This document shows, in pieces, positions 10,591 through 29,375 of a stretch of DNA of 30,453 nucleotides. Both the position numbers and the translations under genes were made by a program. The number at the start of each line of letters is the position of its first letter. Within the stretch, counting starts at the first letter, position 1. Origin of the DNA: a virus; the IMG/VR virus record IMGVR_UViG_3300025141_000496, positions 1 through 30,453 of that record. One strand, written 5' to 3'. Below the pieces are notes generated by a model, which had not been told where the DNA came from, searched no databases, and was given only the letters and a program-made list of their open reading frames with translations.

Positions 10591-10618
10591 TTGCTATTAT
10601 TTTAAAATAATTTATAAT
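10591..10618 (+). promoter_or_regulatory. Sigma70-type promoter, leaderless GTG gene
   Basis: TTGCTA (10591-10596), 16 bp spacer, TATAAT (10613-10618). Six bases (GTCTTC) separate the -10 box from the GTG at 10625, so RNA should start at the start codon. No ribosome-binding site is present between them, consistent with a leaderless mRNA. Confidence 0.65.
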
Positions 10619-10624
10619 GTCTTC

Positions 10625-11131
10625 GTGATCATAGAGGACGAAAGTATATTTAAGGCGAAGGAAAAACAGTATATTGATTCTGTTATTCTAGGCGGAGATA
10701 TTGCTTTTTTCTGGTCTCCTAATCAGGTTAAGAACGATGGAAAACCTTTTCTTTCTCATACTTTAATTCATCGAGACACTCACCAGATTCGTTCACCTCA
10801 CGCTGCTTTTTTTACAGAGCTCGCAACAAAATTTATAAAGAAACATAAACTTAACTTCCGAGTTTTTTTACGAGGAAGTATTAACTTAACTTTTCCTATA
10901 AAAGAAAAAGGAACACCTCATCGAGATCATGATTTTTCTCATCAACAAATCATTATGTATTTAAATAAGAGTAAGGGTGGATCAACCGTTATTCTTTCTG
11001 ACAAACAGAAAATTATAAAAACTATTGAACCAAAACAATTTAAAATGGTTTCCTTTGACGGAAGTTATTTACATTATCAAAACTATCCAAACAAAGGGCG
11101 CCGAGTGGCAGCTGTGATAACCTTTATTTGA
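10625..11131 (+). CDS. 2-oxoglutarate/Fe(II)-dependent oxygenase-like protein
   Basis: A 168-residue protein with the double-stranded beta-helix oxygenase pattern. TPHRDHDFSHQQIIMYLN supplies HxD (His99, Asp101). GGSTVIL (118-124) and FDGSYLHYQNYPNKGRRVAA supply the distal His150 and Arg159/Arg160 for 2-oxoglutarate. Family knowledge: these enzymes hydroxylate proteins, nucleic acids or small molecules, and single-domain versions are common in marine phages with unknown substrates. The GTG start is chosen because the promoter -10 box ends seven bases before it and no ribosome-binding site exists. The gene is bracketed by direct repeats and stands apart from the surrounding operons, as expected for an inserted moron-type cassette. 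Confidence 0.85.
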   Translation: MIIEDESIFKAKEKQYIDSVILGGDIAFFWSPNQVKNDGKPFLSHTLIHRDTHQIRSPHAAFFTELATKFIKKHKLNFRVFLRGSINLTFPIKEKGTPHRDHDFSHQQIIMYLNKSKGGSTVILSDKQKIIKTIEPKQFKMVSFDGSYLHYQNYPNKGRRVAAVITFI

Positions 11132-11172
11132 AAATTCTGCGCGCCTCGCGCGTATATCCTATTATATCCATG
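11131..11172 (+). repeat. Direct repeat flanking the oxygenase gene, right copy
   Basis: Second copy of the 10547-10589 element, starting at the last base of the oxygenase stop and running into the 3' end of the convergent helicase gene. Its core GCGCG-CCT-CGCGC (about 11140-11152) can fold into a tight GC hairpin. Placed between convergent genes it could act as a two-way transcription stop, though no U-run follows. Confidence 0.8.
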
Positions 11173-12592
11173 ATTTAAGCTCCTCCCCAAGAACTTCTGA
11201 AGCTATATTTATTTTTTTACGCAGAGATTTCACAATTTTTTCATCCACGGTATCTTGCGCATTGATGTCTACATAAGTAACAGATTTCTTTTGTCCAATT
11301 CGATGCGCACGGTCCTCGGACTGTAATCGCTTCTCTAGGTCATATCCATTAGAATAGTAAATTACCGTGTTTGCAGCCGTCAAAGTAATGCCATAGCCGC
11401 CTGTAGAGGGCGTTCCAACAAGAAACCGGCACTTAGGGTCGGACTGAAATTTCTTAATATTGCCCTGTCTTTTATCTTGTGGCGTTAATCCAAAATAATC
11501 AACCACGGAACCCGGACCATAAACTTTATTAATTTCTTTAATAATATCTTTTATATCCCATTGGTAGTGAGCCCAAATAATAGCTTTACCTTCTGTCTCT
11601 TCTAAAATATCCATTAATTCTCCTATCCTGTTATTAGAAATTCTTTGAGTAGTCCCATCATCTGCAGTAAAATGCCCGCATGTAATTTGATGAAGTCTCA
11701 TGAGTTGAGTTAATGCATTAACCGTAGTCACTTGTTTTCCGTTTAAAACAGCTAAAGCTTCTTTTTTCATTTGTTCATATAACTTTTTTTGATCTGGAGA
11801 TAGAGCAATCTGTCTTTTAATAAATATTTTATCTGGTAAATCTAAACAATCTTCTTTTAATACTCTATAAGAAAAATTTTTAAGAGAATCAGATAATTCA
11901 CCTAAATTTTTAAATTTATGCACTACCTGAATAGATCGACCATGCATGTGCAAAGTTTTCATTTCAGCATATCTATTTCTAAAAGAATAATAAGAATTAA
12001 AATCCAACAACCACGGACTTAAAAATTGACATTGACTATATAAATCTAATGGATTTTTAGTAACAGGAGATCCTGTCATAATTCTTCTATATTTAGCTTT
12101 AATAGATAAATTAAGAATGTTTTTTGTTCTTTTAGCATTAGGATTTTTGATAGTCGTTGACTCATCAATAACCATTAAAGTATTATGAGAAGAGATAAAT
12201 TTTGCAGCGAAATTAGTTCCTTTAGAAGTGCTTAAGGCTTCAACATTCATAATTAAAATATGAAGTTGTTCTCCTACCTTAAATAAAGTATCTAATTTTT
12301 CTTGCTGACCTTTTGTAATGTTAGCTTGCCACAATATTGTCGTATTCTCTATATGATTGGCTAAATGTGTAGGTAACTCATTTGTATACCAAGTTCCCAC
12401 AACACCTTTAGGTGCAACAATTAAAAGTCCATCAATCTTACCTTTATCATAAAGCATGGCAGCATTATCAATTAATACTTTAGTCTTACCTGTACCCATT
12501 TCCATAAAATAGGCATAAGTTTCTTTATTCCATGATTTTTCCAAAGCAGTAAATTGATGTGCGTATGGTTTTGTTTTAAATTTATAATTCAT
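11162..12592 (-). CDS. SNF2-like superfamily 2 helicase/ATPase
   Basis: A 476-residue SF2 ATPase. Visible motifs are Q-like AHQ (11-13), Walker A EMGTGKTK (31-38), a DEAH-type box VIDEST (141-146), motif III TGSPVTKN (173-180), and C-terminal SNF2 motifs GYGITLTAANTVIYY and QSEDRAHRIGQ. Its compact size, without a large insert, is typical of phage SNF2/DarB-type helicases, which translocate on dsDNA and are thought to act in replication, recombination or host-defence evasion. It is the only minus-strand gene in the left two thirds, transcribed from the symmetrical promoter at 12611-12644. A purine-rich AGAAAGAAG leader precedes the ATG. Confidence 0.9.
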   Translation of the reverse strand: MNYKFKTKPYAHQFTALEKSWNKETYAYFMEMGTGKTKVLIDNAAMLYDKGKIDGLLIVAPKGVVGTWYTNELPTHLANHIENTTILWQANITKGQQEKLDTLFKVGEQLHILIMNVEALSTSKGTNFAAKFISSHNTLMVIDESTTIKNPNAKRTKNILNLSIKAKYRRIMTGSPVTKNPLDLYSQCQFLSPWLLDFNSYYSFRNRYAEMKTLHMHGRSIQVVHKFKNLGELSDSLKNFSYRVLKEDCLDLPDKIFIKRQIALSPDQKKLYEQMKKEALAVLNGKQVTTVNALTQLMRLHQITCGHFTADDGTTQRISNNRIGELMDILEETEGKAIIWAHYQWDIKDIIKEINKVYGPGSVVDYFGLTPQDKRQGNIKKFQSDPKCRFLVGTPSTGGYGITLTAANTVIYYSNGYDLEKRLQSEDRAHRIGQKKSVTYVDINAQDTVDEKIVKSLRKKINIASEVLGEELKSWI

Positions 12593-12610
12593 AATTTTTC
12601 TTCTTTCTAG

Positions 12611-12644
12611 TTGACAATATAACTATCAAACATTATATTGTCAA
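12611..12644. promoter_or_regulatory. Perfectly symmetrical divergent promoter pair (34 bp)
   Basis: A 12 bp perfect inverted repeat, TTGACAATATAA and TTATATTGTCAA, separated by 10 bp. On the plus strand it gives TTGACA (12611-12616), 17 bp, TATATT (12634-12639). On the minus strand it gives the identical TTGACA, 17 bp, TATATT. Plus-strand RNA should start at about 12646, next to the ATG at 12647. Minus-strand RNA should start near 12609 with a 17-nt leader. The same palindrome could also bind a dimeric repressor. Confidence 0.8.
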
Positions 12645-12646
12645 GC

Positions 12647-13012
12647 ATGAAAGAAAAAAAGTTACCAACTGTATATGTAATACAAGAAGTGCCGGGGACT
12701 AGAGAAGGTCGTCCTAAAATTAATATTTTAGGAGCTGCAGAATACGGGACATTTAAATTTTTATTACCTGAACTTTCTCAAATAATTTTTTCACCAGGTC
12801 CTTTGATTTTTAAACTAAGAAAAGAATTAGCTGATTATCAAACAACCGATCATTTATTATTAACAGGAGATCCTGCCATCATTGGCGTTGCCTGTTCTAT
12901 AGTATCTGATATAACGAATGGTAAATACAACTTACTAAAGTGGGATAAACAAGAAAGAAAATATTATTCCATTGCTATAAACTTATACGAGAAAGGAAAA
13001 ATAGATGAGTAA
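12647..13012 (+). CDS. Conserved hypothetical protein, leaderless
   Basis: A 121-residue protein containing GAAEYGTFKFLLPE, LADYQTTDHLLLTGDP and SDITNGKYNLLKWDKQE, segments I associate with an uncharacterised marine-phage family next to replication genes. No catalytic motif is visible. A TTG three codons upstream (12638) would extend the frame, but it lies inside the -10 box. The ATG, seven bases after the -10, is the better start and implies leaderless translation. It overlaps the next gene by 8 nt and starts the replication operon. Confidence 0.75.
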   Translation: MKEKKLPTVYVIQEVPGTREGRPKINILGAAEYGTFKFLLPELSQIIFSPGPLIFKLRKELADYQTTDHLLLTGDPAIIGVACSIVSDITNGKYNLLKWDKQERKYYSIAINLYEKGKIDE

Positions 13013-13559
13013 AATAGATTTTGAAAAAGACCAACAAGAGATTATCCAAAAAACGGATAACATTCAATCTTTGGCTGATCAAGTTGAAAAATTAGAAGCT
13101 TTAAAAGCTACACTTGAACAACAAGAAAAAAATATAAAACACACAAAAAAAGAATTAGAACATGTTTCGGGAGAATTAATTCCAACCATGATGAGTGAAA
13201 TGGGTTTATCTCATTTAAAACTTATGGATGGATCTTCAGTAGATGTTAAACCAAATTATAGCGCAACTATCACTATTGCAAATAGAGAAGCTGCGTTTAA
13301 CTGGCTTCGTGACAATGGATTAGGTGATATTATCAAAAATGATATTACTGTATCTTTTGGCAAAAACGAAGAAAACAAGGCGGCAGATTATGCTGCCCTT
13401 GCACAAGAGCGTGGGTATCAACCAACACAAAAGCTGAAGGTTGAGCCCATGACTCTTAAAGCGCTAGTCCGTGAGCGTATTGAGGCGGGTAAAGACATGC
13501 CAACGGAACTTTTCAACATTTATGTTGGAAATAAAACAACAATAAAAAGGAAACAATAA
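13005..13559 (+). CDS. Conserved phage protein with N-terminal coiled coil
   Basis: A 184-residue protein. Residues 1-55 form a coiled coil (VEKLEALKATLEQQEKNIKH). The rest contains HLKLMDGSSVDVKPNYSATI, NREAAFNWLRDNGLGDIIKN and MTLKALVRERIEAGKDMPTE. This C-terminal pattern recurs in uncharacterised proteins of many phage replication regions; Siphovirus Gp157-like proteins have a broadly similar layout, but I cannot make the assignment. It is followed at 3 nt by the putative ssDNA-binding gene, suggesting a DNA replication or recombination role. Confidence 0.75.
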   Translation: MSKIDFEKDQQEIIQKTDNIQSLADQVEKLEALKATLEQQEKNIKHTKKELEHVSGELIPTMMSEMGLSHLKLMDGSSVDVKPNYSATITIANREAAFNWLRDNGLGDIIKNDITVSFGKNEENKAADYAALAQERGYQPTQKLKVEPMTLKALVRERIEAGKDMPTELFNIYVGNKTTIKRKQ

Positions 13560-13561
13560 AC

Positions 13562-14323
13562 ATGAACCAAGTACAAAGAAAAGAAGAAGCAGGTGCATTG
13601 TCTACGAATTTATTCGAAGCGGATGCAGGTGCGGGCTCTCAGAATATGACGCAGGAAGATCTTGCGTTACCCTTTCTGAAAGTTTTAGGACAATTATCTC
13701 CAGAGGTTAATAAACAAAACGCCAAGTTTATTAGCGGAGCAGAACCTGGAATGATTGTAAACAGCGTGACCAAAGAGCTTTATGATGGAGCCAAAGGTAT
13801 AAATGTTATACCTGTTCATTATGAAAGACAGTATGTCGAATGGCAAGACAGAGGTCAAACAGGAAATGCTCCTGTAGCAATCCATAGTGCAGATAGTGAT
13901 ATCGTGAGTACAACGACTCGTGATAAATCTTGGAAGGATAGATTACCTAATGGTAACTATCTAGAAAACACTGCGAATCATTTTGTGATTCATATGGGTA
14001 AAACTCCCTCAACAGCGTTGATATCCATGAAGGCGACTCAATTAAAAATTAGTCGTAAATGGAACTCCATGATGATGGGTCTTAAGCTACAAGGTAAAAA
14101 CGGTTTATTTACACCACCAACATATAGCCACATTTATAATTTAAAAACTGTTCAAATGTCGAATGACAAAGGAACATGGTTTGGATGGGATGTAACTAAA
14201 GTTGGTCCAGTGACAGATAAAGGTGTTTATTCTATTGCTAAAACTTTTGCGGAAAAAAATAGCAAAGGTTTGGTAAAAGTTAAACACGGATCTGAAGAAT
14301 CAAAAAGCGATTCACCTTATTAA
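13562..14323 (+). CDS. Putative ssDNA-binding / replication protein
   Basis: A 253-residue protein containing EDLALPFLKVLGQLSPEV (33-50), YDGAKGINVIPVHYERQYVE (74-93), SMKATQLKISRKWNSMM (154-170) and WFGWDVTKVGPV (208-219), ending in a short polar tail (SEESKSDSPY). The arrangement, between a coiled-coil protein and the primase and with a charged C-terminus, fits phage proteins commonly annotated as ssDNA-binding. I see no diagnostic OB-fold motif, so the function is inferred from resemblance and position. Confidence 0.7.
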   Translation: MNQVQRKEEAGALSTNLFEADAGAGSQNMTQEDLALPFLKVLGQLSPEVNKQNAKFISGAEPGMIVNSVTKELYDGAKGINVIPVHYERQYVEWQDRGQTGNAPVAIHSADSDIVSTTTRDKSWKDRLPNGNYLENTANHFVIHMGKTPSTALISMKATQLKISRKWNSMMMGLKLQGKNGLFTPPTYSHIYNLKTVQMSNDKGTWFGWDVTKVGPVTDKGVYSIAKTFAEKNSKGLVKVKHGSEESKSDSPY

Positions 14324-14325
14324 TC

Positions 14326-14382
14326 ATCTAGCCAAGCTAGATTCCTAGGATTGGGCGTGGAAGCGAGAGTGAAAACGCCCAA
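14326..14382 (+). other. Structured intergenic element before primase gene
   Basis: The 68 bp gap holds three dyads in a row. ATCTAG/CTAGAT (14326-14342, 5-nt loop) is followed by the palindrome TCCTAGGA (14343-14350) and then TTGGGCGT/ACGCCCAA (14351-14358 and 14375-14382, 16-nt loop). No U-run follows, so a simple intrinsic terminator is unlikely. Possible roles are an RNA processing or attenuation element, or a protein-binding site. The ATG of the primase gene follows 9 nt later. Confidence 0.5.
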
Positions 14383-14391
14383 GACAAAATT

Positions 14392-15912
14392 ATGAGTATA
14401 AATAAATTTAAAGAAATATTTAAAGGGCTAGAACGTGCGCATGGTTGCACTAAAATAAATACGGCTGGAGAAAATGGTGTTAAAGTAAAAGGCCAATCTT
14501 TTGTGGTACGTCAACCTGTAACAGAAGAGCTTTGGTTGAAACATTTAGAAGGGTCACAAAGTTTAGGAATTATTCCAATTAATGATGACAACCAATGTCA
14601 ATGGGGGTGCGTAGATATTGACTCATACGCAGGCTTTGATCATAAAAAATTAATAAATCAAATAAAACAATTAAATTTACCTTTAGTAGTGTGTCGATCC
14701 AAAAGTGGAGGAGCACATGTCTTTCTGTTTACCACAGAACCAGTTTCAGCAGAAAGAATGAGAGACAAACTTACAGAAATAAAAACAGCGCTAGGTTACG
14801 GAGGATCCGAAGTTTTTCCAAAACAGATAAAATTAAAATCCCAAGATGATACGGGAAATTTCTTAAATTTACCATACTTTAATGGGGACAATACAACACG
14901 ATATGCTTTTCTTTCTAATGGTGAAGCGGCCAATCTAAGTGGTTTTTATGGAGAGTATGATAGAAGTAAACAAACTGCAGAACAATTTAAAAACATAAAA
15001 ATAGAAAGACCTAAATCAGAATATGATGATGCACCACCTTGTATTGAACTTATGTCTATGAACAAAGTTCTTGAAGGAGACAAGGGAGGAGGTAGGGATA
15101 ATGCTCTTTTTCATTATGCGGTCTACGCAAAAAAGAAATGGCCTAGTGAGTGGAAAACTCAAATAACTTTATTTAATGCTACTTCATGTGAACCTCCATA
15201 CGAAGAAGCAGGTGTAGCAAGAATTATAGCCCAACATGAGAAAAAAGAATGGGGATACAAATGTAACGACGTTCCTATGTGTAATCTTTGTGATAAAAAA
15301 TTATGTAGAACTAGAAAGTTTGGGATAGGAGATGAAATTGTATTTCCTGCATTGACGGATTTACAAAAAATTAAATTAGAAAAACCTTATTATTATCTTA
15401 ATGTTGATGGAGAAAGATTACATTTAGAAAATGTTAAATTTTTAAAACAACAAAGTCTATTCCAGGAAGCATGTATGGAACAACTGGATTTTAAACCCCC
15501 AACAGTTAAACCTAAAGATTGGGACACCATTATAAACCCATTAATGAAGAACCACGAACCTGTGGAACCACCTGAAGGTGTAACAACACCCGATCAATTA
15601 AAAAGTCATTTAGAAGAGTTTTGTTTGAACCGACACATTGGCTCGGATGTTAGTGATCTTAAAAAAGGAGGAGTGTGGTCTCATGGAGGATATCATCATT
15701 TTGTTTTTAGTATGTTTTACAGTAAGTTTTTAGTGAGACAAAGATGGGAAATAAATTATCAACGTACAGCACAAATGTTGAAAGATCATTGTAATTGTGA
15801 TGACAAAAAAAGAGTGGGAAAAGAACGTGTTTCTGTTTTTACAGTAAAAGAATTTGACAAGAAAAAAGAAGATTATAAACAAAAAGAATTAAAACCCAAG
15901 GATGTATTTTGA
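14392..15912 (+). CDS. Archaeo-eukaryotic-type primase (TOTE/AEP-like)
   Basis: A 506-residue protein with an AEP catalytic core. LGIIPINDDNQCQWGCVDID provides the metal-binding Asp75 and Asp77, RSKSGGAHVFLF the His109 motif, and GGSEVFPKQ plus GNFLNLPYF the third conserved region. This order matches the primase domain of TOTE/PrimPol-like proteins. A Cys cluster, C291-x5-C297-x2-C300-x4-C305, probably binds zinc or an iron-sulfur cluster. The C-terminal 180 residues are unassigned. Family knowledge: synthesises primers, sometimes with polymerase activity. It sits directly upstream of the UvrD-like helicase and polymerase, giving a compact replisome with no DnaB/T7-type helicase-primase in view. 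Confidence 0.85.
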   Translation: MSINKFKEIFKGLERAHGCTKINTAGENGVKVKGQSFVVRQPVTEELWLKHLEGSQSLGIIPINDDNQCQWGCVDIDSYAGFDHKKLINQIKQLNLPLVVCRSKSGGAHVFLFTTEPVSAERMRDKLTEIKTALGYGGSEVFPKQIKLKSQDDTGNFLNLPYFNGDNTTRYAFLSNGEAANLSGFYGEYDRSKQTAEQFKNIKIERPKSEYDDAPPCIELMSMNKVLEGDKGGGRDNALFHYAVYAKKKWPSEWKTQITLFNATSCEPPYEEAGVARIIAQHEKKEWGYKCNDVPMCNLCDKKLCRTRKFGIGDEIVFPALTDLQKIKLEKPYYYLNVDGERLHLENVKFLKQQSLFQEACMEQLDFKPPTVKPKDWDTIINPLMKNHEPVEPPEGVTTPDQLKSHLEEFCLNRHIGSDVSDLKKGGVWSHGGYHHFVFSMFYSKFLVRQRWEINYQRTAQMLKDHCNCDDKKRVGKERVSVFTVKEFDKKKEDYKQKELKPKDVF

Positions 15913-15983
15913 TGAGCACTGATTTGTTATTTTTAGTTGCACTTACAGCTTATTTTATATTGAAATTAAATTTAGGAATATGA
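15912..15983 (+). CDS. 23-residue single-TM microprotein
   Basis: An ORF of 23 codons, MSTDLLFLVALTAYFILKLN and three more residues, almost entirely one hydrophobic helix with a basic C-terminal flank. Its ATG overlaps the primase TGA by one base and its TGA overlaps the helicase ATG (ATGA). This end-to-end coupling fills the only gap between the two genes and is the main evidence. A membrane anchor or regulator is possible; function unknown. Confidence 0.55.
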   Translation: MSTDLLFLVALTAYFILKLNLGI

Positions 15984-18165: not shown

Positions 18166-20015
18166 TGCAAATACCTCTTTTTAAACCCCAAACAGAATGG
18201 TTACCGCCAGAAAATTTTCCTGACTTATCTGCGTACGATGAAATTTCAATAGACTTAGAAACAAAAGATCCTGATTTAATTAAAATGGGATCAGGTTCAA
18301 TTGTAGGTAGAGGAGACGTAACGGGTATAGCAGTAGCTGTTAAAAATTGGTGTGGCTATTATCCTATTGCTCACGAAGGTGGCGGCAACATGGATCGAAA
18401 AAAAGTTTTGAAATGGGTTCAAGATGTATTAAGTACACCCGCGATAAAAATATTTCATAACGCCATGTATGACGTTTGTTGGCTACGAGCGATCGGCTTA
18501 AGTATTAGCGGTAAAATAGTGGACACGATGATTGCTTCGGCCCTTGTTGATGAAAATCAAATGCGCTATGACTTAAACAACTGCAGTAAAAGATACACTG
18601 GTAAAGGAAAGAATGAAACAGAATTATATGAAGCTGCGAAAAGTTGGGGAGTTGACCCTAAGGCAGAAATGTATAAACTACCTGCCATTTATGTGGGCGC
18701 ATATGCAGAAAAGGATGCTGAAATAACTTTAGCCCTTTGGCAAGAACTAAAAAAAGAAATACATCATCAAGATCTTAGTGCCATCATGAATATGGAAACT
18801 GAATTATTTCCTTGTTTAATTGATATGAAATTTAAAGGGGTGCGTGTTGACGTAGCAGCAGCTCATCAATTAAAAAAAGAATTAGTTACTCAAGAAAAAG
18901 AATCATTGTTAGCTGTAAAAAAAGAAACAGGCATAGATACTCAAATATGGGCGGCACGCTCTATTGCTCAAGTTTTTGATAAACTAAATTTAGAGTATGA
19001 TAGAACTGAAAAAACAAACGCACCTTCTTTTACTAAGAATTTTTTATCTAATCACCCTCACCCCGTTGTAAAACACATTGCTCGGGCTAGAGAAATTAAT
19101 AAATCTCACACGACATTTATTGACACAATCCTTAAACATTCCTACAAAGGTAGAATCCACGCTGATATCAATCAATTGCGTGGAGACAATGGAGGAACGG
19201 TTACCGGAAGATTTTCTTATTCCAATCCAAATTTACAGCAAATACCAGCACGGAACAAGGATCTCGGACCACGGATTAGGTCCTTATTTATCCCTGAGGA
19301 AGGCCATACATGGGGTTGTTTTGACTATAATCAACAAGAGCCTAGGTTGGTAGTGCATTATGCAACGTTACAAAATCTCTATGGCGTGGATGAAGTTTTA
19401 GAAGCTTATCGTGAAGGAGATGCAGATTTTCACAATATTGTTGCTGATATGGCAGAGATACCTAGATCACAAGCCAAGACTATAAACCTGGGTCTGTTCT
19501 ACGGTATGGGTAAAAATAAATTGCAAGCAGAGCTTGGGGTATCCAAAGATAAAGCGGAAGAATTATTTAAAAAATATCATACTAAGGTTCCATTTGTAAA
19601 ACAACTTATGGATAATGTAAGTCAACGGGCTCAAGACTCTGGTAAAATTAGAACGTTACTTGGAAGATTATGTAGGTTTCATTTATGGGAACCTAATTCA
19701 TTTGGTATTCATAAAGCTTTACCACACGAAGAAGCACTCAGGGAACACGGACCAGGGATTAAACGAGCCTATACTTATAAATCTTTAAACAAACTCATAC
19801 AAGGATCAGCAGCAGATATGACTAAAAAAGCTATGGTTGATTTATATAAAGAAGGCATTATTCCCCATATACAAGTTCATGATGAACTAGATATTTCTGT
19901 AGAATCTGATAAACAAGCAAAACAAATAGTAGAAATTATGGAATCTGCGGTTAAACTAGAAGTACCAAATAAAGTAGACTATGAATCTGGTTTTAATTGG
20001 GGTAACATCAAATAG
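18165..20015 (+). CDS. polA: Family A DNA polymerase with 3'-5' exonuclease
   Basis: A 616-residue PolA lacking the 5'-nuclease domain. The proofreading domain shows ISIDLET (Asp30, Glu32), HNAMYDV (Asp103) and YAEKDAE (Asp184). The polymerase domain shows GRFSYSNPNLQQIPARN (349-365), motif A CFDYNQQEPR (Asp387), the O-helix RSQAKTINLGLFYGMG (434-449) and motif C QVHDELD (570-576). The residue matching Phe762 of E. coli Pol I is Leu442. Published virioplankton work links this substitution with slower, more faithful synthesis and often with temperate life, yet no lysogeny gene is seen here. It is the replicative polymerase by context. Confidence 0.96.
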   Translation: MQIPLFKPQTEWLPPENFPDLSAYDEISIDLETKDPDLIKMGSGSIVGRGDVTGIAVAVKNWCGYYPIAHEGGGNMDRKKVLKWVQDVLSTPAIKIFHNAMYDVCWLRAIGLSISGKIVDTMIASALVDENQMRYDLNNCSKRYTGKGKNETELYEAAKSWGVDPKAEMYKLPAIYVGAYAEKDAEITLALWQELKKEIHHQDLSAIMNMETELFPCLIDMKFKGVRVDVAAAHQLKKELVTQEKESLLAVKKETGIDTQIWAARSIAQVFDKLNLEYDRTEKTNAPSFTKNFLSNHPHPVVKHIARAREINKSHTTFIDTILKHSYKGRIHADINQLRGDNGGTVTGRFSYSNPNLQQIPARNKDLGPRIRSLFIPEEGHTWGCFDYNQQEPRLVVHYATLQNLYGVDEVLEAYREGDADFHNIVADMAEIPRSQAKTINLGLFYGMGKNKLQAELGVSKDKAEELFKKYHTKVPFVKQLMDNVSQRAQDSGKIRTLLGRLCRFHLWEPNSFGIHKALPHEEALREHGPGIKRAYTYKSLNKLIQGSAADMTKKAMVDLYKEGIIPHIQVHDELDISVESDKQAKQIVEIMESAVKLEVPNKVDYESGFNWGNIK

Positions 20016-21311: not shown

Positions 21312-21315
21312 ATGG

Positions 21316-22135: not shown

Positions 22136-22136
22136 G

Positions 22137-23168: not shown

Positions 23169-23173
23169 AGCCC

Positions 23174-23619: not shown

Positions 23620-23627
23620 TACAGGCC

Positions 23628-23656
23628 TTGACAAAAATCATCTAATCTCCTATATT
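23628..23656 (+). promoter_or_regulatory. Consensus sigma70-type promoter, leaderless
   Basis: TTGACA (23628-23633), 17 bp spacer, TATATT (23651-23656). Six bases (AGGGAT) separate it from the ATG at 23663, so transcription should begin at the A of the start codon. There is no room for a ribosome-binding site. The mRNA would begin ATGAAAGA. Confidence 0.85.
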
Positions 23657-23662
23657 AGGGAT

Positions 23663-23923
23663 ATGAAAGAAATACACATAAAGGTTTCTAATATTTCTGA
23701 GCGACAATGGAATAGCTTCCTTATTGAACTTAATCTGGTTAAATCTTCTTGGAGAAAATTTGGCCCTCGAATAGAAATTAAAGCTAAAAATTTTGAGAAA
23801 ATTATTAAGTGGGGACGAAGAAAACCAGGTGCGGTAGAATTAGAACATGAAACACATAATAATATTATTACTTACCACAAACCTAAGCGTTCAGGAAATA
23901 AGACTTCCCACGCACGGTCTTGA
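23663..23923 (+). CDS. Hypothetical basic protein, leaderless
   Basis: An 86-residue soluble, basic protein: VSNISERQWNSFLIELNLVK, SSWRKFGPRIEIKAKNFEKI and a Lys/Arg-rich C-terminus. No family recognised. The start is fixed by the consensus promoter whose -10 box ends seven bases upstream. Its last 77 bases overlap the next gene in another frame. Confidence 0.7.
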   Translation: MKEIHIKVSNISERQWNSFLIELNLVKSSWRKFGPRIEIKAKNFEKIIKWGRRKPGAVELEHETHNNIITYHKPKRSGNKTSHARS

Positions 23924-24041: not shown

Positions 24042-24048
24042 AATTTCG

Positions 24049-24241: not shown

Positions 24242-24279
24242 AGGTGAGAAAAAATAGTGTAACACATTTTGCCTCAATA

Positions 24280-24498
24280 TCAAACCTGTTTTTCTGCGAT
24301 TTCTTTGCAAGAAAATTTAATAAAAATTTTATTGGTATTAATATAGTCATCTCCCATAACATTTAACAGCGACAATGAGTCATTATAGCCCTGGTGCATA
24401 CAACTCGACCAATCTTCAAACAACGTTCTATGTTGAAAAGGGGCTTGGCATTCACCGGCTACAGCGGAGCAAATAATTAAACTTAATAATATTTTCAT
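24280..24498 (-). CDS. Small secreted protein on the minus strand
   Basis: Using the ATG at 24498 gives 72 residues: signal peptide MKILLSLIICSAVAGECQAP, then QHRTLFEDWSSCMHQGYNDS, LSLLNVMGDDYINTNKIFIK and FSCKEIAEKQ. Cysteines in the mature part could form disulfides. The upstream extension to 24627 would run into the divergent promoter and the ribbon-helix-helix gene, so the shorter start is preferred. TTGTCAAG lies directly upstream of the ATG, as at 12647 and 28882. No good minus-strand promoter was found. Confidence 0.65.
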   Translation of the reverse strand: MKILLSLIICSAVAGECQAPFQHRTLFEDWSSCMHQGYNDSLSLLNVMGDDYINTNKIFIKFSCKEIAEKQV

Positions 24499-24499
24499 C

Positions 24500-24529
24500 T
24501 TGACAATGCTTTTAAATATCCTATATAAT
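24500..24529 (+). promoter_or_regulatory. Sigma70-type promoter upstream of leader ORF
   Basis: TTGACA (24500-24505), 18 bp spacer, TATAAT (24524-24529). Seven bases later is ATG 24537, the start of a six-codon ORF. The -35 box begins two bases from the minus-strand ATG at 24498. Confidence 0.75.
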
Positions 24530-24536
24530 AATCCAA

Positions 24537-24557
24537 ATGAAAGGAAATAACATATGA
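24537..24557 (+). CDS. Six-codon leaderless leader peptide (MKGNNI)
   Basis: ATG 24537 lies eight bases after the -10 box. The ORF encodes six residues and its TGA overlaps the ATG of the ribbon-helix-helix gene (ATGA, 24554-24557). Its codons 2-3 (AAAGGA) also serve as the ribosome-binding site for that gene. It is probably a coupling device rather than a functional peptide. Confidence 0.4.
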   Translation: MKGNNI

Positions 24558-24727
24558 CGGATATAACAAAGTATAGAAATGTTTCATTAACGCATGGAAC
24601 ATACAAGACATTAATAAATTTGTCCAAAGTTTTATTACCAGACGCAAAACTGTCTATTAGTAAAACGATTGAGGCATTAGCGAATGAGAAAGCGAAGAAG
24701 TTAAATGGTAAAATTAAAAAAATATAG
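24554..24727 (+). CDS. Ribbon-helix-helix DNA-binding protein (57 aa)
   Basis: A 57-residue protein. YRNVSLTHGTYKTLINLSKV looks like the N-terminal strand and helix 1, and LSISKTIEALANEKAKKLNG helix 2, the Arc/MetJ fold layout. Family knowledge: dimers bind palindromic operators in the major groove through the strand. It sits behind a consensus promoter beside several dyad-symmetric promoters, making it a candidate regulator of them. AAAGGA stands eight bases before the ATG. Confidence 0.7.
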   Translation: MTDITKYRNVSLTHGTYKTLINLSKVLLPDAKLSISKTIEALANEKAKKLNGKIKKI

Positions 24728-24953
24728 AGTACATAAAGCTATTTGTGATATATGTAATGGCAATGGCTTTGTTAAAATAAAACCAAGTAATTATATGCTA
24801 AAACTACTTGGTAAAAAACCAAATAGTGTGGAGAACGTTCACCAGTGTTGGGAATGTGATTCAGAAGGAGAATATTATGTATACAATCCTACATCGGATT
24901 CGTCAGATAACAATTCTACTGACCATTACAATAGTAACCCATTCTTGCACTGA
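24705..24953 (+). CDS. DnaJ-type zinc-finger protein
   Basis: An 82-residue protein with CDICNGNG (14-21) and CWECDSEG (49-56), two CxxCxGxG-like knuckles as in the DnaJ zinc-binding domain, separated by a Lys-rich loop. The Asp/Ser/Asn-rich tail follows. Only one zinc centre is formed, against two in full DnaJ. It overlaps the ribbon-helix-helix gene by 23 nt. Possible roles are protein disulfide or chaperone activity, or nucleic-acid binding; not resolved. Confidence 0.7.
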   Translation: MVKLKKYRVHKAICDICNGNGFVKIKPSNYMLKLLGKKPNSVENVHQCWECDSEGEYYVYNPTSDSSDNNSTDHYNSNPFLH

Positions 24954-25110
24954 GTTTGCGCTCATCACTGCAGGAGGAAGTGTGGCTGTTTCCCATAATG
25001 CTTATGTGAAAGCCTATAATGGAGTTGACGTTCTTACCATTATGGCAACAGAAAAAGACATTAAAAAACATGTCTATGATTCTATTAAAACAAAAACAAA
25101 CCCTAAATAA
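24877..25110 (+). CDS. Small exported protein, possible lipoprotein
   Basis: Starting at ATG 24877, 77 residues. The hydrophobic N-terminus RQITILLTITIVTHSC may be a lipoprotein signal with Cys at residue 22, although THSC is an imperfect lipobox. The rest reads ALITAGGSVAVSHNAYVKAY, NGVDVLTIMATEKDIKKHVY. The start is chosen because AGAAGGAG (24863-24870) stands six bases upstream; an upstream in-frame ATG at 24808 has no such site. It overlaps the zinc-finger gene by 77 nt. Confidence 0.65.
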   Translation: MYTILHRIRQITILLTITIVTHSCTEFALITAGGSVAVSHNAYVKAYNGVDVLTIMATEKDIKKHVYDSIKTKTNPK

Positions 25111-25191
25111 ATGCCTCCTTTTTTTATTATTATTTTTAGTACCCTAACTTTCGTGACTTTATTAAGTGTTTATATGTTAGTCACAATTTAG
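25111..25191 (+). CDS. 26-residue membrane peptide
   Basis: An ORF starting on the base after the preceding TAA: MPPFFIIIFSTLTFVTLLSV and six more residues, a single hydrophobic helix with no charge. It has no ribosome-binding site of its own and would depend on stop-start reinitiation. Such tiny hydrophobic ORFs are common in this genome, but chance is possible. Confidence 0.4.
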   Translation: MPPFFIIIFSTLTFVTLLSVYMLVTI

Positions 25192-25238
25192 CCTTATTCT
25201 CCCCAAGCCTCAGCGATACAAATACTGCAAAAAAAGAC

Positions 25239-25267
25239 TTGAACTTAGTTCACAGAAGGACTATATA
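25239..25267 (+). promoter_or_regulatory. Sigma70-type promoter, leaderless
   Basis: TTGAAC (25239-25244), 17 bp spacer, TATATA (25262-25267), then six bases (GGAAGC) and ATG at 25274. RNA should begin at the start codon with ATGAAAGA. Confidence 0.7.
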
Positions 25268-25273
25268 GGAAGC

Positions 25274-25345
25274 ATGAAAGAAACAAACCAAGTTATAAAT
25301 GTTACATGGGTTTCGTTTATAACCTTATTTTTAATTAACTCATGA
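25274..25345 (+). CDS. 23-residue leaderless leader ORF before parB-like gene
   Basis: ATG seven bases after the -10 box; product MKETNQVINVTWVSFITLFL plus three residues, with a hydrophobic C-terminal half. Its TGA lies 12 bases before the ATG of the ParB-like gene, and AGAAAGGA (25345-25352) between them is the ribosome-binding site of that gene. It could be a translated leader controlling the ParB-like gene, or a small membrane peptide. Confidence 0.45.
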   Translation: MKETNQVINVTWVSFITLFLINS

Positions 25346-25357
25346 GAAAGGAAATAA

Positions 25358-26263
25358 ATGAAGAAAAAAAGAGATAGAAATAAAGGTAGTAAACGAAGAT
25401 TTATTACTAATATTTCTAAACCCAAAGATGAGATGTTTTCTAAATGGCAAGGAAATACTGTTCCCATGTTAGGTCGTCATTATTCATTAGATAAATTAAA
25501 AAATGATGCCAAACTGGACACCGATGTATTATACACGCGGAACTACAGTAAATTTAAACTAATGGAAGATAACCGAGATGTTGATGATAATCACGTTGCG
25601 GAACTGGTTGTAAGTATTCAAAAGAGAGGACAGTTACAGCCGATTATTATTAATGAAAAGAATGAAATCATTGATGGTCAAAGACGTTTCACTTCATGCA
25701 AAATTCTGGACATTCCAGTTATGTATATTGTGAGTCGTAAAACAACTATTAAAGATGTTCTTCTTATTAACACTTCTCAAAAATCATGGACCCGACACGA
25801 TTATCTAAAGGCCTATTGTCATAAGAATCATTGGAATCATGTAGAGTATCTAAAAATTGCTACTTTTCTTAAAACTTATTCTTTAAAATTTGATATTGCT
25901 TTATTCTTGTTGTACGGACAACCCTTACAACACAGCGCAGGCAAAGGACTAAAAGATTTTAAAATGGGTGATTTTAAAGTTGCTAGTTTAGAGGGTGCTC
26001 AAAAACAAGCCAATCAGTTAATGAAGATTAAAGCATTTGCTCCTAATCTTGTTAACATTGGTAAGTTTTGTAAAGCTTTTCTCCGAGTTTCTGGACTGGA
26101 AGATTTTTCTTATACGATTGCCTACAAGCAATTGGAAAAAAATACTAAGAAATTTGATAAATGTCAGAACCAAGAAGACTGGGATGAAGCGATGGTTAAA
26201 GCTTATAACTTTAACTTAAAAAAACCTAGTAAAAAAATATCCATCAAAAAAGATGGGTTTTAA
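25358..26263 (+). CDS. ParB N-terminal-domain protein
   Basis: A 301-residue protein. After a basic N-terminus, residues 68-125 form a ParB/Srx-like domain: DNRDVDDNHVAELVVSIQKR, GQLQPIIINEKNEIIDGQRR and FTSCKILDIPVMYIV. The IDGQRR box (105-110) corresponds to the GxRR motif of ParB, now known to bind and hydrolyse CTP in partition proteins. The C-terminal half is Lys-rich and helical and lacks a clear helix-turn-helix that I can name. No ParA is seen, so plasmid-like partition is unlikely; regulatory or nuclease-like ParB roles in phages are alternatives. It is transcribed behind the 23-codon leader ORF. Confidence 0.8.
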   Translation: MKKKRDRNKGSKRRFITNISKPKDEMFSKWQGNTVPMLGRHYSLDKLKNDAKLDTDVLYTRNYSKFKLMEDNRDVDDNHVAELVVSIQKRGQLQPIIINEKNEIIDGQRRFTSCKILDIPVMYIVSRKTTIKDVLLINTSQKSWTRHDYLKAYCHKNHWNHVEYLKIATFLKTYSLKFDIALFLLYGQPLQHSAGKGLKDFKMGDFKVASLEGAQKQANQLMKIKAFAPNLVNIGKFCKAFLRVSGLEDFSYTIAYKQLEKNTKKFDKCQNQEDWDEAMVKAYNFNLKKPSKKISIKKDGF

Positions 26264-26268
26264 AAACA

Positions 26269-26286
26269 TGGGGCCTTCGGGCCCCA
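26269..26286 (+). terminator. GC hairpin with TTCG loop after ParB-like gene
   Basis: TGGGGCC, TTCG, GGCCCCA: a perfect 7 bp stem closed by a very stable UUCG tetraloop, six bases after the ParB-like stop. No U-run follows (ACCGTAAA leads into the next ATG). It may be a transcription pause or partial terminator, or may protect RNA 3' ends. Confidence 0.6.
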
Positions 26287-26293
26287 CCGTAAA

Positions 26294-26605
26294 ATGAAAA
26301 AAGAAAATTACAAACCCCTACCTTATCAATTAATTATTGCCGATTCCGCGATTAGCGGTCAAGGTGTGTTTACGACACGAAAATTAGTACAAGGAACCTT
26401 ACTTGGAATTTCTCATTATCGAATTGATGGAGAGTATATTCGAACTCCTTTAGGAGGATTTATTAATCATTCGGAAACCCCTAATTGTCATCGCTCTCAA
26501 GCGCGTATTCGCGAAGGTTTTGATAAATGGTATATTACCGTCGTCAAAGATATTAACAAAGGGGAAGAACTTACATTAAAATATATTTTATATGACCCAA
26601 AATAA
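26294..26605 (+). CDS. Minimal SET-domain protein (putative lysine methyltransferase)
   Basis: A 103-residue single SET domain: SAISGQGVFTTRKLVQGTLL (18-37) with the GxG SAM-binding loop, GGFINHSETPNC (54-65) with the NHS...PNC signature, and DINKGEELTLKYILYD (86-101) with the catalytic-type Tyr97. It has no pre- or post-SET cysteines and is shorter than eukaryotic SET (about 130). Family knowledge: SET enzymes methylate protein lysines; viral single-domain examples exist. Targets in a bacterium are unknown. It is preceded closely by the UUCG hairpin and lacks an evident ribosome-binding site. Confidence 0.85.
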   Translation: MKKENYKPLPYQLIIADSAISGQGVFTTRKLVQGTLLGISHYRIDGEYIRTPLGGFINHSETPNCHRSQARIREGFDKWYITVVKDINKGEELTLKYILYDPK

Positions 26606-26747
26606 AAAACCGAAATGGGACGGTCGATCTCGTGTTTCTACCGACATTTACCGAAAACGTTTCAACGAAATTTTTAAAAAAGAAGAAAAAGAAGAAAACA
26701 AAGAAAGGAAAGATTTAAATGAATCGCTTAGAGAAACTCCAAAGTAA
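26592..26747 (+). CDS. 51-residue charged protein
   Basis: An ORF overlapping the SET gene by 14 nt and the next gene by 29 nt. It encodes TQNKKPKWDGRSRVSTDIYR, KRFNEIFKKEEKEENKERKD and a short tail. The KWDGRSR...YRxxxxEIF pattern recurs, from memory, in marine-phage small proteins. It is highly charged and helical with no known function. Confidence 0.6.
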   Translation: MTQNKKPKWDGRSRVSTDIYRKRFNEIFKKEEKEENKERKDLNESLRETPK

Positions 26748-26937
26748 TCATAAGTATAAAGAAAGCCGCCGACGAGCTCGCTTGGCCTGGTCGAGAACGG
26801 AACATGGTAAAGCCTGGTCCAGAAATTATATGAAAGAATATAGAAAACTTCCTCACGTCAAAGCCGCCGCACGAGAATATTATATTAAAAAAATTATAAA
26901 AGAAAGTATTGATGCCGGAAGAGAGGACCATGCATAA
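26719..26937 (+). CDS. 72-residue basic protein
   Basis: A basic, helical protein: NHKYKESRRRARLAWSRTEH, GKAWSRNYMKEYRKLPHVKA, AAREYYIKKIIKES. It is rich in Arg, Lys, Tyr and Trp with no TM, so a nucleic-acid-binding role is plausible. GAAAGGAAAG lies five bases before the ATG. Overlaps with both neighbours show tight co-translation. The layout somewhat resembles HNH-flanking basic repeats, but no nuclease motif is present. Confidence 0.65.
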   Translation: MNRLEKLQSNHKYKESRRRARLAWSRTEHGKAWSRNYMKEYRKLPHVKAAAREYYIKKIIKESIDAGREDHA

Positions 26938-27064
26938 AAAATTTTATAAAATTATATATGATTGTATTGTCAGTGGTCAAGTGTCTGCTGATCGTATTGC
27001 GAAGTACTTTCAAGATAAAGGTTTTTATAAGTATTGGAAAAAAAGAAATGAAAAAAAGTCATAA
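26930..27064 (+). CDS. 44-residue small protein
   Basis: An ORF overlapping the previous gene by 8 nt and the exonuclease gene by 17 nt. It encodes MHKKFYKIIYDCIVSGQVSA and DRIAKYFQDKGFYKYWKK. The SGQVxxxxIxxxFxDxxFYxxY pattern resembles a recurring marine-phage small protein, from memory. It has no TM segment and is probably a small helical domain. Function unknown. Confidence 0.6.
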   Translation: MHKKFYKIIYDCIVSGQVSADRIAKYFQDKGFYKYWKKRNEKKS

Positions 27065-27791
27065 ATACAGCTACATCACCGGGAAACAAATTACCGATGG
27101 AGAGACCGGAACCCGGTTCTATGACTTCCAGGGAATTAAATTGCCTAGCGTCACAACTATCCTTGCAAAGACCAAGAATCAGGAGTATCTAACGGCGTGG
27201 AAAAATAAGGTAGGACATGAAAAAGCAGAATCCATCAAGAATTTATCTTCTCAGCGGGGGACAAGCATGCACAAGTTCCTGGAGTCTCATATCACGGACG
27301 TTGGCTACGATGATCTTACGCCAATCGGATGCGAGGCGAAGTCCATGGCCGAAAAAATTATTGAAGTGGGTCTTACGCCTGTTTCAGAAATCTATGGTTC
27401 GGAAGTCATGCTACATTACCCTGGGTTATATGCTGGCTCTACTGACCTGGTATGCTTGCACAATGATTTAGAGACCATCGTTGATTTTAAGCAAGCCAAT
27501 CGACCTAAGAGAGAAGAATGGATTGAGGATTATTATATGCAAATTGCCGCCTACGCCATGGCCCACGATGCCTACTACGGGAGCACGATCAGGCAGGGGG
27601 TCATTATGATTTGTACGCCGGATCTATATTATCAAGAATTTAGGATCACGGACCAGGGCTTACGGAGCTGGAAACATAAGTTTCTTAAGAGGTTGGACCA
27701 ATACAATGAACTAATTCATAGCGAGAAAGAACAAGCACAGGTTGATACGACGGCATTACTGGAAGAATTTTCAAAGGATAAAGTGTCCTAA
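27048..27791 (+). CDS. RecB/Cas4-like PD-(D/E)XK exonuclease
   Basis: Starting at ATG 27048 the product has 247 residues. Nuclease motifs are RGTSMHKFLE (70-79, His75), GLYAGSTDLV (126-135, Asp133), IVDFKQANRPK (144-154, Asp146-Phe-Lys148) and YYMQIAAYA (162-170, QxxxY). This is the motif order of phage RecB-like exonucleases. Family knowledge: they degrade DNA ends for recombination or recycle host DNA. The longer frame from 26958 overlaps the preceding small gene and adds a non-family N-terminus, so the shorter start is chosen. The gene is noticeably richer in G+C from about 27100 to 27780 than its surroundings. Confidence 0.88.
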   Translation: MKKSHKYSYITGKQITDGETGTRFYDFQGIKLPSVTTILAKTKNQEYLTAWKNKVGHEKAESIKNLSSQRGTSMHKFLESHITDVGYDDLTPIGCEAKSMAEKIIEVGLTPVSEIYGSEVMLHYPGLYAGSTDLVCLHNDLETIVDFKQANRPKREEWIEDYYMQIAAYAMAHDAYYGSTIRQGVIMICTPDLYYQEFRITDQGLRSWKHKFLKRLDQYNELIHSEKEQAQVDTTALLEEFSKDKVS

Positions 27792-28032
27792 ATGTGTTTG
27801 AAATGTGTTCAAACTAAGGCATACGACAGAATCTGTATATGCAGCTAAAAAAAAATAAATTTTCAAATAAAAACTACTCTAGAAAAAGTGTCTTTTTGTA
27901 CAAATGGCTTAGAAGTGTTGGTATACAACAATAATGTCTGCCATTTGGTGTAAATAAAAAGTGTCATGTGACAGATTATAATGTCACTTTTGAACTAAGT
28001 GCGACATATGTGTACAATAGCTCTATCTAGCC
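27792..28032. promoter_or_regulatory. Noncoding region with many inverted repeats
   Basis: No credible gene lies in 27792-28107. Dyads seen: GTTTGAA/TTCAAAC (27796-27814); AAAAAG/CTTTTT (27883-27897); AAATGGC/GCCATTT (about 27903-27946) enclosing TGTTG-GTATA-CAACA; and GTGACA/TGTCAC (about 27968-27987) around a TATAAT. It is the largest control-type region of the window and could hold operators, small RNAs or an origin. Confidence 0.6.
27990..28018 (+). promoter_or_regulatory. Promoter immediately before a terminator
   Basis: TTGAAC (27990-27995), 17 bp spacer, TACAAT (28013-28018). RNA should start near 28025, only about 8 bases before the terminator stem at 28033. The product would be either a tiny RNA of about 35 nt or a leader subject to antitermination for the gene at 28108. 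Confidence 0.5.
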
Positions 28033-28060
28033 CCAAAAGTTTTCAAGCTTTTGGTTTTTT
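28033..28060 (+). terminator. Rho-independent terminator
   Basis: CCAAAAG (28033-28039), 8-nt loop, CTTTTGG (28048-28054), then TTTTTT (28055-28060) and a second T-run. This is the clearest intrinsic terminator in the window. It stops transcripts from the left before the gene at 28108. Confidence 0.8.
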
Positions 28061-28107
28061 CATTTTTTTTTACATACCTATAGAGATTTTTAAGTTATAA
28101 AGATAAA

Positions 28108-28395
28108 ATGCCCAAGAAGAGAAAATTAAATGTTGTGAGTAGTCCGTCCGAGATTCCCTTTCAAAAGTATAGAGTTGAATGGATTGATTGTATTAGTGAC
28201 TCTGGTTGGGCTGATGAGAAAGAATTCAATAAGATGAAGCTGGCTACCCCAGTCAATGAAGGTTGGTTATATTCTAAAGATAAGAATGCTATTAAACTAT
28301 TTGCTTCCTATGATAAGGAAGATGATGGTAGCTTTACTTTTGGAGATCGGACGATGATTCCTTTGCCTTGGGTGAAGAAGATGACGAAGATTTAG
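28108..28395 (+). CDS. Conserved hypothetical protein (95 aa)
   Basis: A 95-residue protein: basic start MPKKRKLNVVSS, then QKYRVEWIDCISDSGWADEK, EFNKMKLATPVNEGWLYSKD and FGDRTMIPLPWVKKM. The YRVEWxDxxxDSxWxDExEF pattern seems to be a phage family of unknown function. It lies after the terminator and converges on the small terminase gene, sharing 62 bases with its 3' end on the opposite strand. Confidence 0.7.
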   Translation: MPKKRKLNVVSSPSEIPFQKYRVEWIDCISDSGWADEKEFNKMKLATPVNEGWLYSKDKNAIKLFASYDKEDDGSFTFGDRTMIPLPWVKKMTKI

Positions 28396-28882
28396 ATGGC
28401 TTATTCTCAATTACCCCTTCAACAATCTTTGGAGATAGAAGAGGTTCGTAGTCGTGTAAAATTTGTTTCATTTTGGCTTCTAGTTGTTCCACTGTTAATT
28501 CTTCTAATTTCCCATGTTTTATTATTTTTCTGTCTATGTATAATCCTGCTGCCTTGCCTCGAGATACTTCAGCGTTTACAGCAGAAGAAAAACTTCCCTT
28601 CTTGAGAGCAGCCTGTTTAATTCTGTCTAGCTCGGCAACATGCTTTTCATAACTTACTTCAAATTTTTTTCGTCTCTCTTCTTTGAGTTCTCCCATAAAT
28701 TTTGCCACTAACGGGGAAAGTCTTGGATTCATCAACTCACAGCCTTCTTGTTTTGCTCTCTTAGGACTATAGCCAGCAAGCTTCGCTGCCTCCATTTGAG
28801 TCATCATACCTTCGGGTCCACCAAATACCATGTATTCAGCAAATCTTTTTTGCATTTCTGTTAATCTTTTTGGAACTCCCAT
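28334..28882 (-). CDS. terS: Terminase small subunit
   Basis: A 182-residue protein. The N-terminal DNA-binding region has LTEMQKRFAEYMVFGGPEG, MTQMEAAKLAGYSPKRAKQE and GCELMNPRLSPLVAKFMGEL, the helix-turn-helix and NPxV/L pattern of Terminase_2-type small subunits. A middle coil follows, then SFSSAVNAEVSRGKAAGLYI, a recurrent terminase small-subunit element. The tail is a Ser-rich run with acidic and basic residues. Family knowledge: recognises viral DNA ends and activates the large terminase. The ATG at 28882 is preferred over a TTG at 28891, which lies in the minus-strand -10 box. The large subunit is not in the window. Confidence 0.85.
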   Translation of the reverse strand: MGVPKRLTEMQKRFAEYMVFGGPEGMMTQMEAAKLAGYSPKRAKQEGCELMNPRLSPLVAKFMGELKEERRKKFEVSYEKHVAELDRIKQAALKKGSFSSAVNAEVSRGKAAGLYIDRKIIKHGKLEELTVEQLEAKMKQILHDYEPLLSPKIVEGVIENKPSKSSSSSSPKAKESSSDLQK

Positions 28883-28884
28883 AC

Positions 28885-28918
28885 TTGACAATTTAAGGTA
28901 ACTATCCTATAAAGTCAA
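28885..28918. promoter_or_regulatory. Interlocked divergent promoter pair (34 bp)
   Basis: Plus strand: TTGACA (28885-28890), 17 bp, TATAAA (28908-28913), six bases, ATG 28920. Minus strand: TTGACT (28918-28913), 17 bp, TAAATT (28895-28890), seven bases, ATG 28882. Both mRNAs should be leaderless or nearly so. The outer TTGAC-N24-GTCAA geometry equals that at 12611-12644. Confidence 0.75.
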
Positions 28919-28919
28919 T

Positions 28920-29375
28920 ATGAAAGATGACCGAGGAGATTTAGATTTAACACTTCTGATTGAAAACCATCAGAAAGAACTTTGGGATTTTAAACAAAAA
29001 GAATCTCAGTGGATAATGGATAAAAATCAGCTAGAGGGTAATCAAAAAATTATTAATGAACTTTCTGCAAAACTACTAGACGTTACGAAAGCAAATTTTT
29101 CTTTGAAATCGAAGTTGGTTGAAGCTGAAGAAGCCTTAGCTAATGCGTTAGCTAGTGATGAGCGTCAGAAGGAAGCAGATGAGAAGATGATGTTCAAGCT
29201 AGAAAGAATACGAGAGTTAGAAAATATTAATGATGATCATAGACAATTAAATGGACACTTACAGAGTCGCTTGACAGAGGTGGAGCAGGAGGTTATAGAG
29301 CTTCATGCTGACAATAAAAAGTTAGCACGGCAAATACAAGATTTAGAAAACAACCGTAAATATTCTGAAAGTTAA
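28920..29375 (+). CDS. Coiled-coil protein, leaderless
   Basis: A 151-residue protein that is nearly one continuous coiled coil: LIENHQKELWDFKQKESQWI, SLKSKLVEAEEALANALASD, RLTEVEQEVIELHADNKKLA. It has no TM, signal or Cys. Scaffolding or a DNA-packaging partner is conceivable because it is divergent from the small terminase gene, but nothing specific shows this. The start is fixed by the promoter; the mRNA begins ATGAAAGA. Confidence 0.75.
   Translation: MKDDRGDLDLTLLIENHQKELWDFKQKESQWIMDKNQLEGNQKIINELSAKLLDVTKANFSLKSKLVEAEEALANALASDERQKEADEKMMFKLERIRELENINDDHRQLNGHLQSRLTEVEQEVIELHADNKKLARQIQDLENNRKYSES

Follow-up and report, generated by a model that had tools for sequence, protein, structure and literature searches.

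Do some genes of a marine phage begin translation at the very 5′ end of their mRNA, and do the letters just behind the start codon belong to the signal? The question is raised by IMG/VR virus record IMGVR_UViG_3300025141_000496, analyzed here over its whole length of 30,453 bases (the window). The record is kin to the Pelagibacter phages HTVC027P and HTVC023P and encodes a Pam3-type baseplate region, an SNF2 helicase and a terminase small subunit (terS). The original prediction listed seven promoters whose −10 boxes stand 6-7 nucleotides (nt) from a start codon, five of them followed by ATGAAAG, and read them as leaderless promoters fused to a common start segment. We hold with good confidence that these are leaderless sigma70-like promoters of a SAR11-phage lineage, with a two-way element of 34 base pairs (bp) and a start segment selected at the nucleotide level. 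The earlier observation was confirmed in part and its interpretation supported in part, and it had missed the near-palindromic bidirectional promoters of which two members of its list are halves.

Results

All seven promoter-start pairs were recovered (Table 1), with −10-to-start distances of 6-7 nt and spacers of 16-18 bp; the −35 box, described as mostly TTGACA, reads exactly so in only four of the seven. Promoter-like sites overall show no excess over shuffled sequence, so only the joint spacing of promoter and start is informative. The chance expectation was taken from 300 Markov-1 random windows, with at most one mismatch per box and an ATG 6-7 nt after the −10 box. By this measure the window holds seven strong promoters with a suitably placed ATG, compared with a random mean of 1.4 and a maximum of 6; the seven include the chance-like minus-strand sites at 14133 and 16770 and leave out those at 10625 and 25274. 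ATGAAAG follows a strong promoter four times (random mean 0.007, maximum 1), and open reading frames (ORFs) of at least 60 codons do so four times as well (random mean 0.04, maximum 1).

The starts at 12647, 23663 and 28920/28882 are firm members of the set, and that at 28882 lacks ATGAAAG, as had been noted. At 10625 and 25274 the boxes are present, but both are weak. We regard 25274 as a plausible leaderless ATGAAAG start with a weak −35 box; its ATGAAAG is kept in one relative (L733), and small ATGAAAG ORFs lie ahead of ParB in two others (L734 and L736). No relative of the protein starting at 10625 was found in the viral collection. The fifth proposed ATGAAAG start, 24537, was rejected as a gene start: its frame (ATG AAA GGA AAT AAC ATA TGA) stops after six codons, and ATGAAAGG at this site is the Shine-Dalgarno sequence (GAAAGGA) of ATG 24554. 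The gene at 24554 (MTDITKY...) is kept in relatives with varied leaders, and its HTVC027P homologue also has a GAAAGGA leader. Three of the five ATGAAAG starts (12647, 23663 and 28920) are thus firm and one is plausible.

The spacing is conserved beyond the window. The related set comprised 160 marine phage contigs (1.17 Mb), 80 taken by terS homology and 80 by gp32 homology from at least that many matches each. Behind TTGACA/TATATT-type boxes in this set, ATG-opened ORFs number 46, 74 and 27 at distances of 6, 7 and 8 nt downstream of the −10 box (147 in all) and about 0-10 times at other short distances; scrambled −35/−10 pairs in the same 1.17 Mb give no peak. The −10-to-ATG distance is therefore conserved, an outcome in favor of the original prediction. 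This peak and the Markov null together place a non-random −10 box 10-12 bp before the start codon, as in leaderless genes, and rule out chance in an A+T-rich genome.

With simple gene calls, and with strong promoters defined by a score of at least 11 of 12, a Shine-Dalgarno sequence was found at 1% of strong leaderless genes versus 43% of others, in agreement with starts that lack a ribosome-binding site. ATGAAAG opens 123 of 172 strong-promoter genes (72%) versus 34 of 1354 others (2.5%), so that its fusion to the promoter in front of unrelated proteins recurs in relatives. Since a handful of orthologous loci contribute most of these phylogenetically uncorrected counts, we also averaged over protein families, which gave an ATGAAAG fraction of 0.44-0.55 versus 0.03 in others. 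In the family of the gene at 23663, ATGAAAG is found in 20 of 21 leaderless relatives, some of them fetched with a pattern containing ATGAAAG, and in 10 of 10 homology-selected contigs. As far as sequence and its conservation can demonstrate, then, 6-8 nt separate the −10 box from ATG, no Shine-Dalgarno sequence accompanies this start and, at divergent gene pairs, one 34-bp element supplies both strands with a full promoter.

In an unselected viral sample, TTGACA/TATATT boxes with an ATG at 6-7 nt open an ORF in 81 of 117 of the matches listed, compared with 42 of 116 listed for control ATGs at 16-17 nt, so leaderless promoters are widespread in viruses. ATGAAAG as a general virus feature was rejected, since nine of nine ATGAAAG cases among the matches listed belong to this phage group. 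In several leaderless promoters (L005, L006, L210 and similar), the −10 box is framed by an inverted repeat, GGGATAT..ATATCCC, which is possibly an operator.

The stretches 12611-12644 and 28885-28918 are 34-bp near-palindromes, each with a complete promoter on either strand. The plus −35 box occupies element positions 1-6, the minus −10 box 6-11, the plus −10 box 24-29 and the minus −35 box 29-34. Each −10 box has its last base pair in common with the opposite −35 box, an overlap that works because the last base of TATAAT pairs with the last base of TTGACA. Since the two promoters are bidirectional halves, the GTCAA that separates the −10 box from ATG belongs to the opposite gene's −35 box, seen as its reverse complement. 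A scan of viral contigs with TTGACAATATA-N12/13-TATATTGTCAA, a pattern that contains no start codon, returned at least 119 stretches. All 101 analysable copies among the matches listed sit between two divergent gene starts, and 97 of their arms have an ATG exactly 2 nt past the −35 box. HTVC027P, isolated on SAR11 strain HTCC1062, carries TTGAT..ATCAA between gp30 and gp31, both of which start 6-7 nt from −10 boxes.

The element therefore places promoter sequences on both strands between divergent genes, as bidirectional promoters do. It does not show overlapping −10 elements or start sites about 10-23 bp apart: at 28885-28918 the −10 boxes are separated by 12 bp (28896-28907), and the predicted starts are 37-39 bp apart. 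A hairpin or RNA element was considered and rejected, since a scan of the window gave no tRNA and no Rfam match and the predicted starts are downstream of the palindrome, which would therefore not be transcribed.

At the terS locus (terS identified by phrog_51, E 3e-13, and PF03592, E 5e-7), the divergent arrangement is present in 63 of 80 relatives as TTGAC-N24-GTCAA, with an inner spacing of 24 in all 63 and the two start codons 36-40 bp apart. The terS start, MGVPKR, is conserved across loci directly after the promoter, and the divergent neighbor begins with ATGAAAG in 60 of the 63 loci and with ATGACAG in three. Both genes flanking the element at 28885 are thus predicted to be leaderless.

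At 12611, a leaderless start is predicted for the plus-strand gene, and a short leader precedes the helicase. Most of 80 relatives have TTGACA-N16/17-TATATT-GTCAAGC-ATGAAAG upstream of gp32, with an inner spacing of 23-28, and keep ATGAAAG though the next residues vary in sequence and length. The helicase transcript is predicted to begin with AGAAAG. Across 69 relatives on this side, the position of GAAAG has a variance of 0.7 relative to the promoter arm versus 15.2 relative to the start codon, and GAAAG stays in place where an unrelated gene replaces the neighbor (L431 and L185). GAAAG is fixed to the promoter and not to the start codon, and is therefore a property of the transcript's 5′ end; being pinned in a leadered transcript as well, it is not purely a leaderless start signal. 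Nor does GAAAG behave as a Shine-Dalgarno sequence at fixed spacing before the start codon, given the helicase variance and its position after AUG on the leaderless side. In three relatives (L439, L451 and L492), tryptophan-halogenase-like flavoprotein genes, named by eye from the sequence without a family search, stand in gp32's place behind the same bidirectional promoter and start with ATGAAAGAT.

The invariant part of the start segment is nucleotide sequence. In contigs chosen regardless of start codon, the ATG behind such promoters continues with AAAG in 117 of 142 distinct cases and, for the bidirectional set, in 75 of 76; after AUG-AAA, the third codon begins with G in 117 of 120 and 75 of 75, respectively. 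The lysine codon is always AAA in these sets, compared with AAG in 30 of 224 other Met-Lys genes, and a third-codon G follows Met-Lys in 129 of 137 leaderless versus 36 of 224 other genes. At the third position, all five residues encoded by GNN codons occur (E, D, G, V and A); what stays invariant is therefore the G nucleotide and not an amino acid. ATGAAAG is common to unrelated proteins (Pam3_gp32-like, the coiled-coil type at 28920, the 23663 family and the halogenase-like flavoproteins), suggesting a signal in the letters themselves. The general Shine-Dalgarno consensus of these phages, AGAAAGGAGA, matches CCTCCTTTCT, the end of alphaproteobacterial 16S, and pairing of GAAAG with that tail is therefore conceivable; of the alphaproteobacterial 16S genes read, 26 of 28 copies end in CCTCCTTTC. 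An UP-element role for CTTTC on the opposite strand was rejected as the general cause, as the one-directional promoters of the 23663 family also have ATGAAAG.

Table 1. Promoters, elements and genes of the window
Feature	Position	Strand	Details
Promoter-like TTGCTA-16-TATAAT-6-GTG 10625 with 2OG-oxygenase-like ORF	10591-11131	+	Leaderless candidate only
SNF2-type helicase	11162-12592	−	Short leader; predicted 5′ end AGAAAGAAGAAAAATTATG
Near-perfect palindromic promoter TTGACAATATAAC..TTATATTGTCAA	12611-12644	+ and −	TTGACA-17-TATATT on both strands
Promoter TTGACA-17-TATATT-7-ATG 12647			
Leaderless Pam3_gp32-like gene (baseplate region)	12647-13012	+	Start ATGAAAGAA; PF23992, E 8e-30
Promoter TTGACA-17-TATATT-6-ATG 23663	23628-23656	+	One-directional
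Leaderless gene, function unassigned, 86 residues	23663-23923	+	Start ATGAAAGAA; based on relatives' starts
Promoter TTGACA-18-TATAAT-7-ATG 24537	24500-24529	+	With leader; real start ATG 24554
Weak promoter TTGAAC-17-TATATA-6-ATG 25274 with 23-codon ORF	25239-25345	+	Start ATGAAAGAA; upstream of ParB-like gene
Terminase small subunit, leaderless	28334-28882	−	Start ATGGGAG, 7 nt past minus −10 TAAATT
Promoter TTGACT-17-TAAATT-7-ATG 28882		−	
Bidirectional promoter TTGACAATTTAAGGTAACTATCCTATAAAGTCAA	28885-28918	+ and −	Plus −35 28885-28890, −10 28908-28913; minus −35 28918-28913, −10 28895-28890
Promoter TTGACA-17-TATAAA-6-ATG 28920		+	
Leaderless gene, 151 residues, coiled-coil-like	28920-29375	+	Start ATGAAAGATG

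Discussion

Overall, we provide a putative mechanism for gene starting at these promoters. RNA polymerase would bind the 34-bp element in one orientation at a time, the two orientations being mutually exclusive, and transcription would start at or within 0-2 nt of the start codon. The ribosome would take the 5′-AUG directly, without a Shine-Dalgarno sequence. AUGAAAG on the leaderless side and AGAAAG on the leadered helicase side would be selected as nucleotides rather than as amino acids. The AAAG might serve promoter clearance, provide an open A-rich start or allow brief pairing of GAAAG with the 16S CUUUC tail; most likely, the segment helps the transcript's 5′ end work, and the data fit all three variants. 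We speculate, and only tentatively, that the 5′-terminal AUGAAAG/AGAAAG is a dedicated signal read by the ribosome (possibly through the SAR11 16S CUUUC tail) or by RNA polymerase, letting 36-40 bp hold two promoters and serve two start codons without a ribosome-binding site.

Several points weigh against this mechanism. Most of the sequences come from two or three orthologous loci, and the counts are not independent. When families are collapsed, G at position 7 among Met-Lys genes falls to a modest 0.50 (13 families) versus 0.21 (65), partly because the score cut-off admits chance promoter matches. The terS gene is predicted to be leaderless yet lacks ATGAAAG, and the mRNA 5′ ends are predicted from sequence. 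As for the rRNA-pairing variant, 16S-pairing downstream boxes have been refuted elsewhere (PMC3160421).

Other explanations account for part of the data. Different genes stand behind a near-identical element plus ATGAAAG, as they would if the segment moved with the promoter as a recombination module and marked a common crossover point just downstream rather than a function. We think this rather unlikely, since non-palindromic promoters with other spacers (the 23663 family and others) also have ATGAAAG and, within families, ATGAAAG is kept while the adjoining codons change. The segment could also be the ordinary Met-Lys start of A+T-rich genes, multiplied by descent from a few loci with no selection on its letters. 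ATGAAA is indeed the commonest start in other genes as well, and gp32 and the terS neighbor supply the bulk of the counts. However, the excess of G after Met-Lys in leaderless over other genes, the constancy of that G across five third residues, the highly variable N-termini just past ATGAAAG and its presence in the unrelated halogenase-like genes make this account unlikely.

That a phage regulator dimer binds the near-palindrome (TTGAC..GTCAA) as its operator, the promoter likeness being secondary, strikes us as quite improbable. Conservation is highest in the inverted arms TTGAC/GTCAA, HTVC027P is symmetric too, and the terS inner spacing is the same without exception; but the gp32 inner spacing varies, −10-like boxes stand at the right 16-18 spacing on both strands, promoters without a divergent neighbor (the 23663 family) have no GTCAA, and every one of the listed copies lies between two gene starts. 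Least of all do we expect GAAAG to be a displaced Shine-Dalgarno sequence with the real starts downstream, which is very unlikely even though the phage consensus is AGAAAGGAGA and 24537 is such a case: the reading frames at 12647, 23663 and 28920 are conserved right from the ATG and offer no alternative start ahead of the conserved residues, and terS begins at its conserved MGVPKR right after the promoter.

Leaderless ('TA-led') genes are known from lambda cI, Actinobacteria and Deinococcus-Thermus (PMC3160421, PMC9031893). The phage genes resemble them in having a −10 box about 12 bp before the start codon, no Shine-Dalgarno sequence and a predicted 5′ AUG, and differ in their common ATGAAAG nucleotide segment and strict −35/−10 promoter. 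The segment also recalls the downstream box hypothesis, in which sequence just past the AUG of leaderless mRNA was proposed to pair with 16S rRNA; here, in contrast, the letters match the extreme 3′ tail (CUUUC), and the classical box was refuted (PMC3160421). In the literature searched, we found no report of leaderless starts in SAR11 phages.

Known bacterial bidirectional promoters have overlapping −10 elements and a distance of about 18 bp between start sites (PMC10268837), with a range of 10-23 bp (PMC12825309). The phage element is similar in being one pseudo-symmetric element from which RNA polymerase is predicted to go either way into two divergent genes. Its geometry is nevertheless different, as each −10 box overlaps the opposite −35 box by one base pair and transcription is predicted to start at the two start codons or right beside them, at sites about 37-39 bp from each other. 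HTVC027P gp30/gp31 has the same divergent layout and −10-to-start distances and differs in its arms, TTGAT instead of TTGAC. Transcriptomics of HTVC027P found gp30 expressed early and late and did not discuss promoters or start sites (PMC12753301). Leaderless mRNA and bidirectional promoters are each known; their combination, the geometry and the start consensus look new.

Relatives are plentiful in ocean metagenomes (at least 80 contigs per homology scan), and the closest isolated phages have hosts in SAR11, the most abundant bacteria of the ocean; how genes start in these phages is not described in the literature searched. If confirmed, the arrangement would be an extreme compression of the gene boundary, with both promoters fitted into the roughly 37 bp that separate two start codons, and would offer a natural replicated test of which post-AUG letters make leaderless translation work, a long-open question. 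Start-codon annotation in these phage genomes would also change.

Additional observations

A minus-strand ORF of 72 residues with a signal-peptide-like start (24280-24498) has its ATG right after GTCAAG, the reverse of the −35 box at 24500. Together with the 24500 promoter it would form a third divergent leaderless pair, which we consider possible; its −10 box is weak. A second geometry, TTGAC-N7-9-GTCAA with the −10 boxes outside the arms and the −35 boxes overlapping and facing each other, precedes other small genes (L283, which is HTVC027P, at 18170-18240; L033, L054 and L058).

A direct repeat, CTGCGCGCCTCGCG[T/C]GTATATCCTA..ATCCATG, with a GCGCG-CCT-CGCGC hairpin, lies at 10554-10597 and 11137-11180 and flanks the 2OG-oxygenase-like gene 10625-11131. 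A single copy is present in L120, L123, L129, L137 and L163, in several of them at the 3′ end of the helicase gene. The gene has the look of a recent insertion with duplicated repeat copies on either side. Its PHROG family is DNA endonuclease V, and Pfam points weakly to a 2OG-Fe(II) oxygenase; HTVC008M proteins annotated as endonuclease V may be misnamed.

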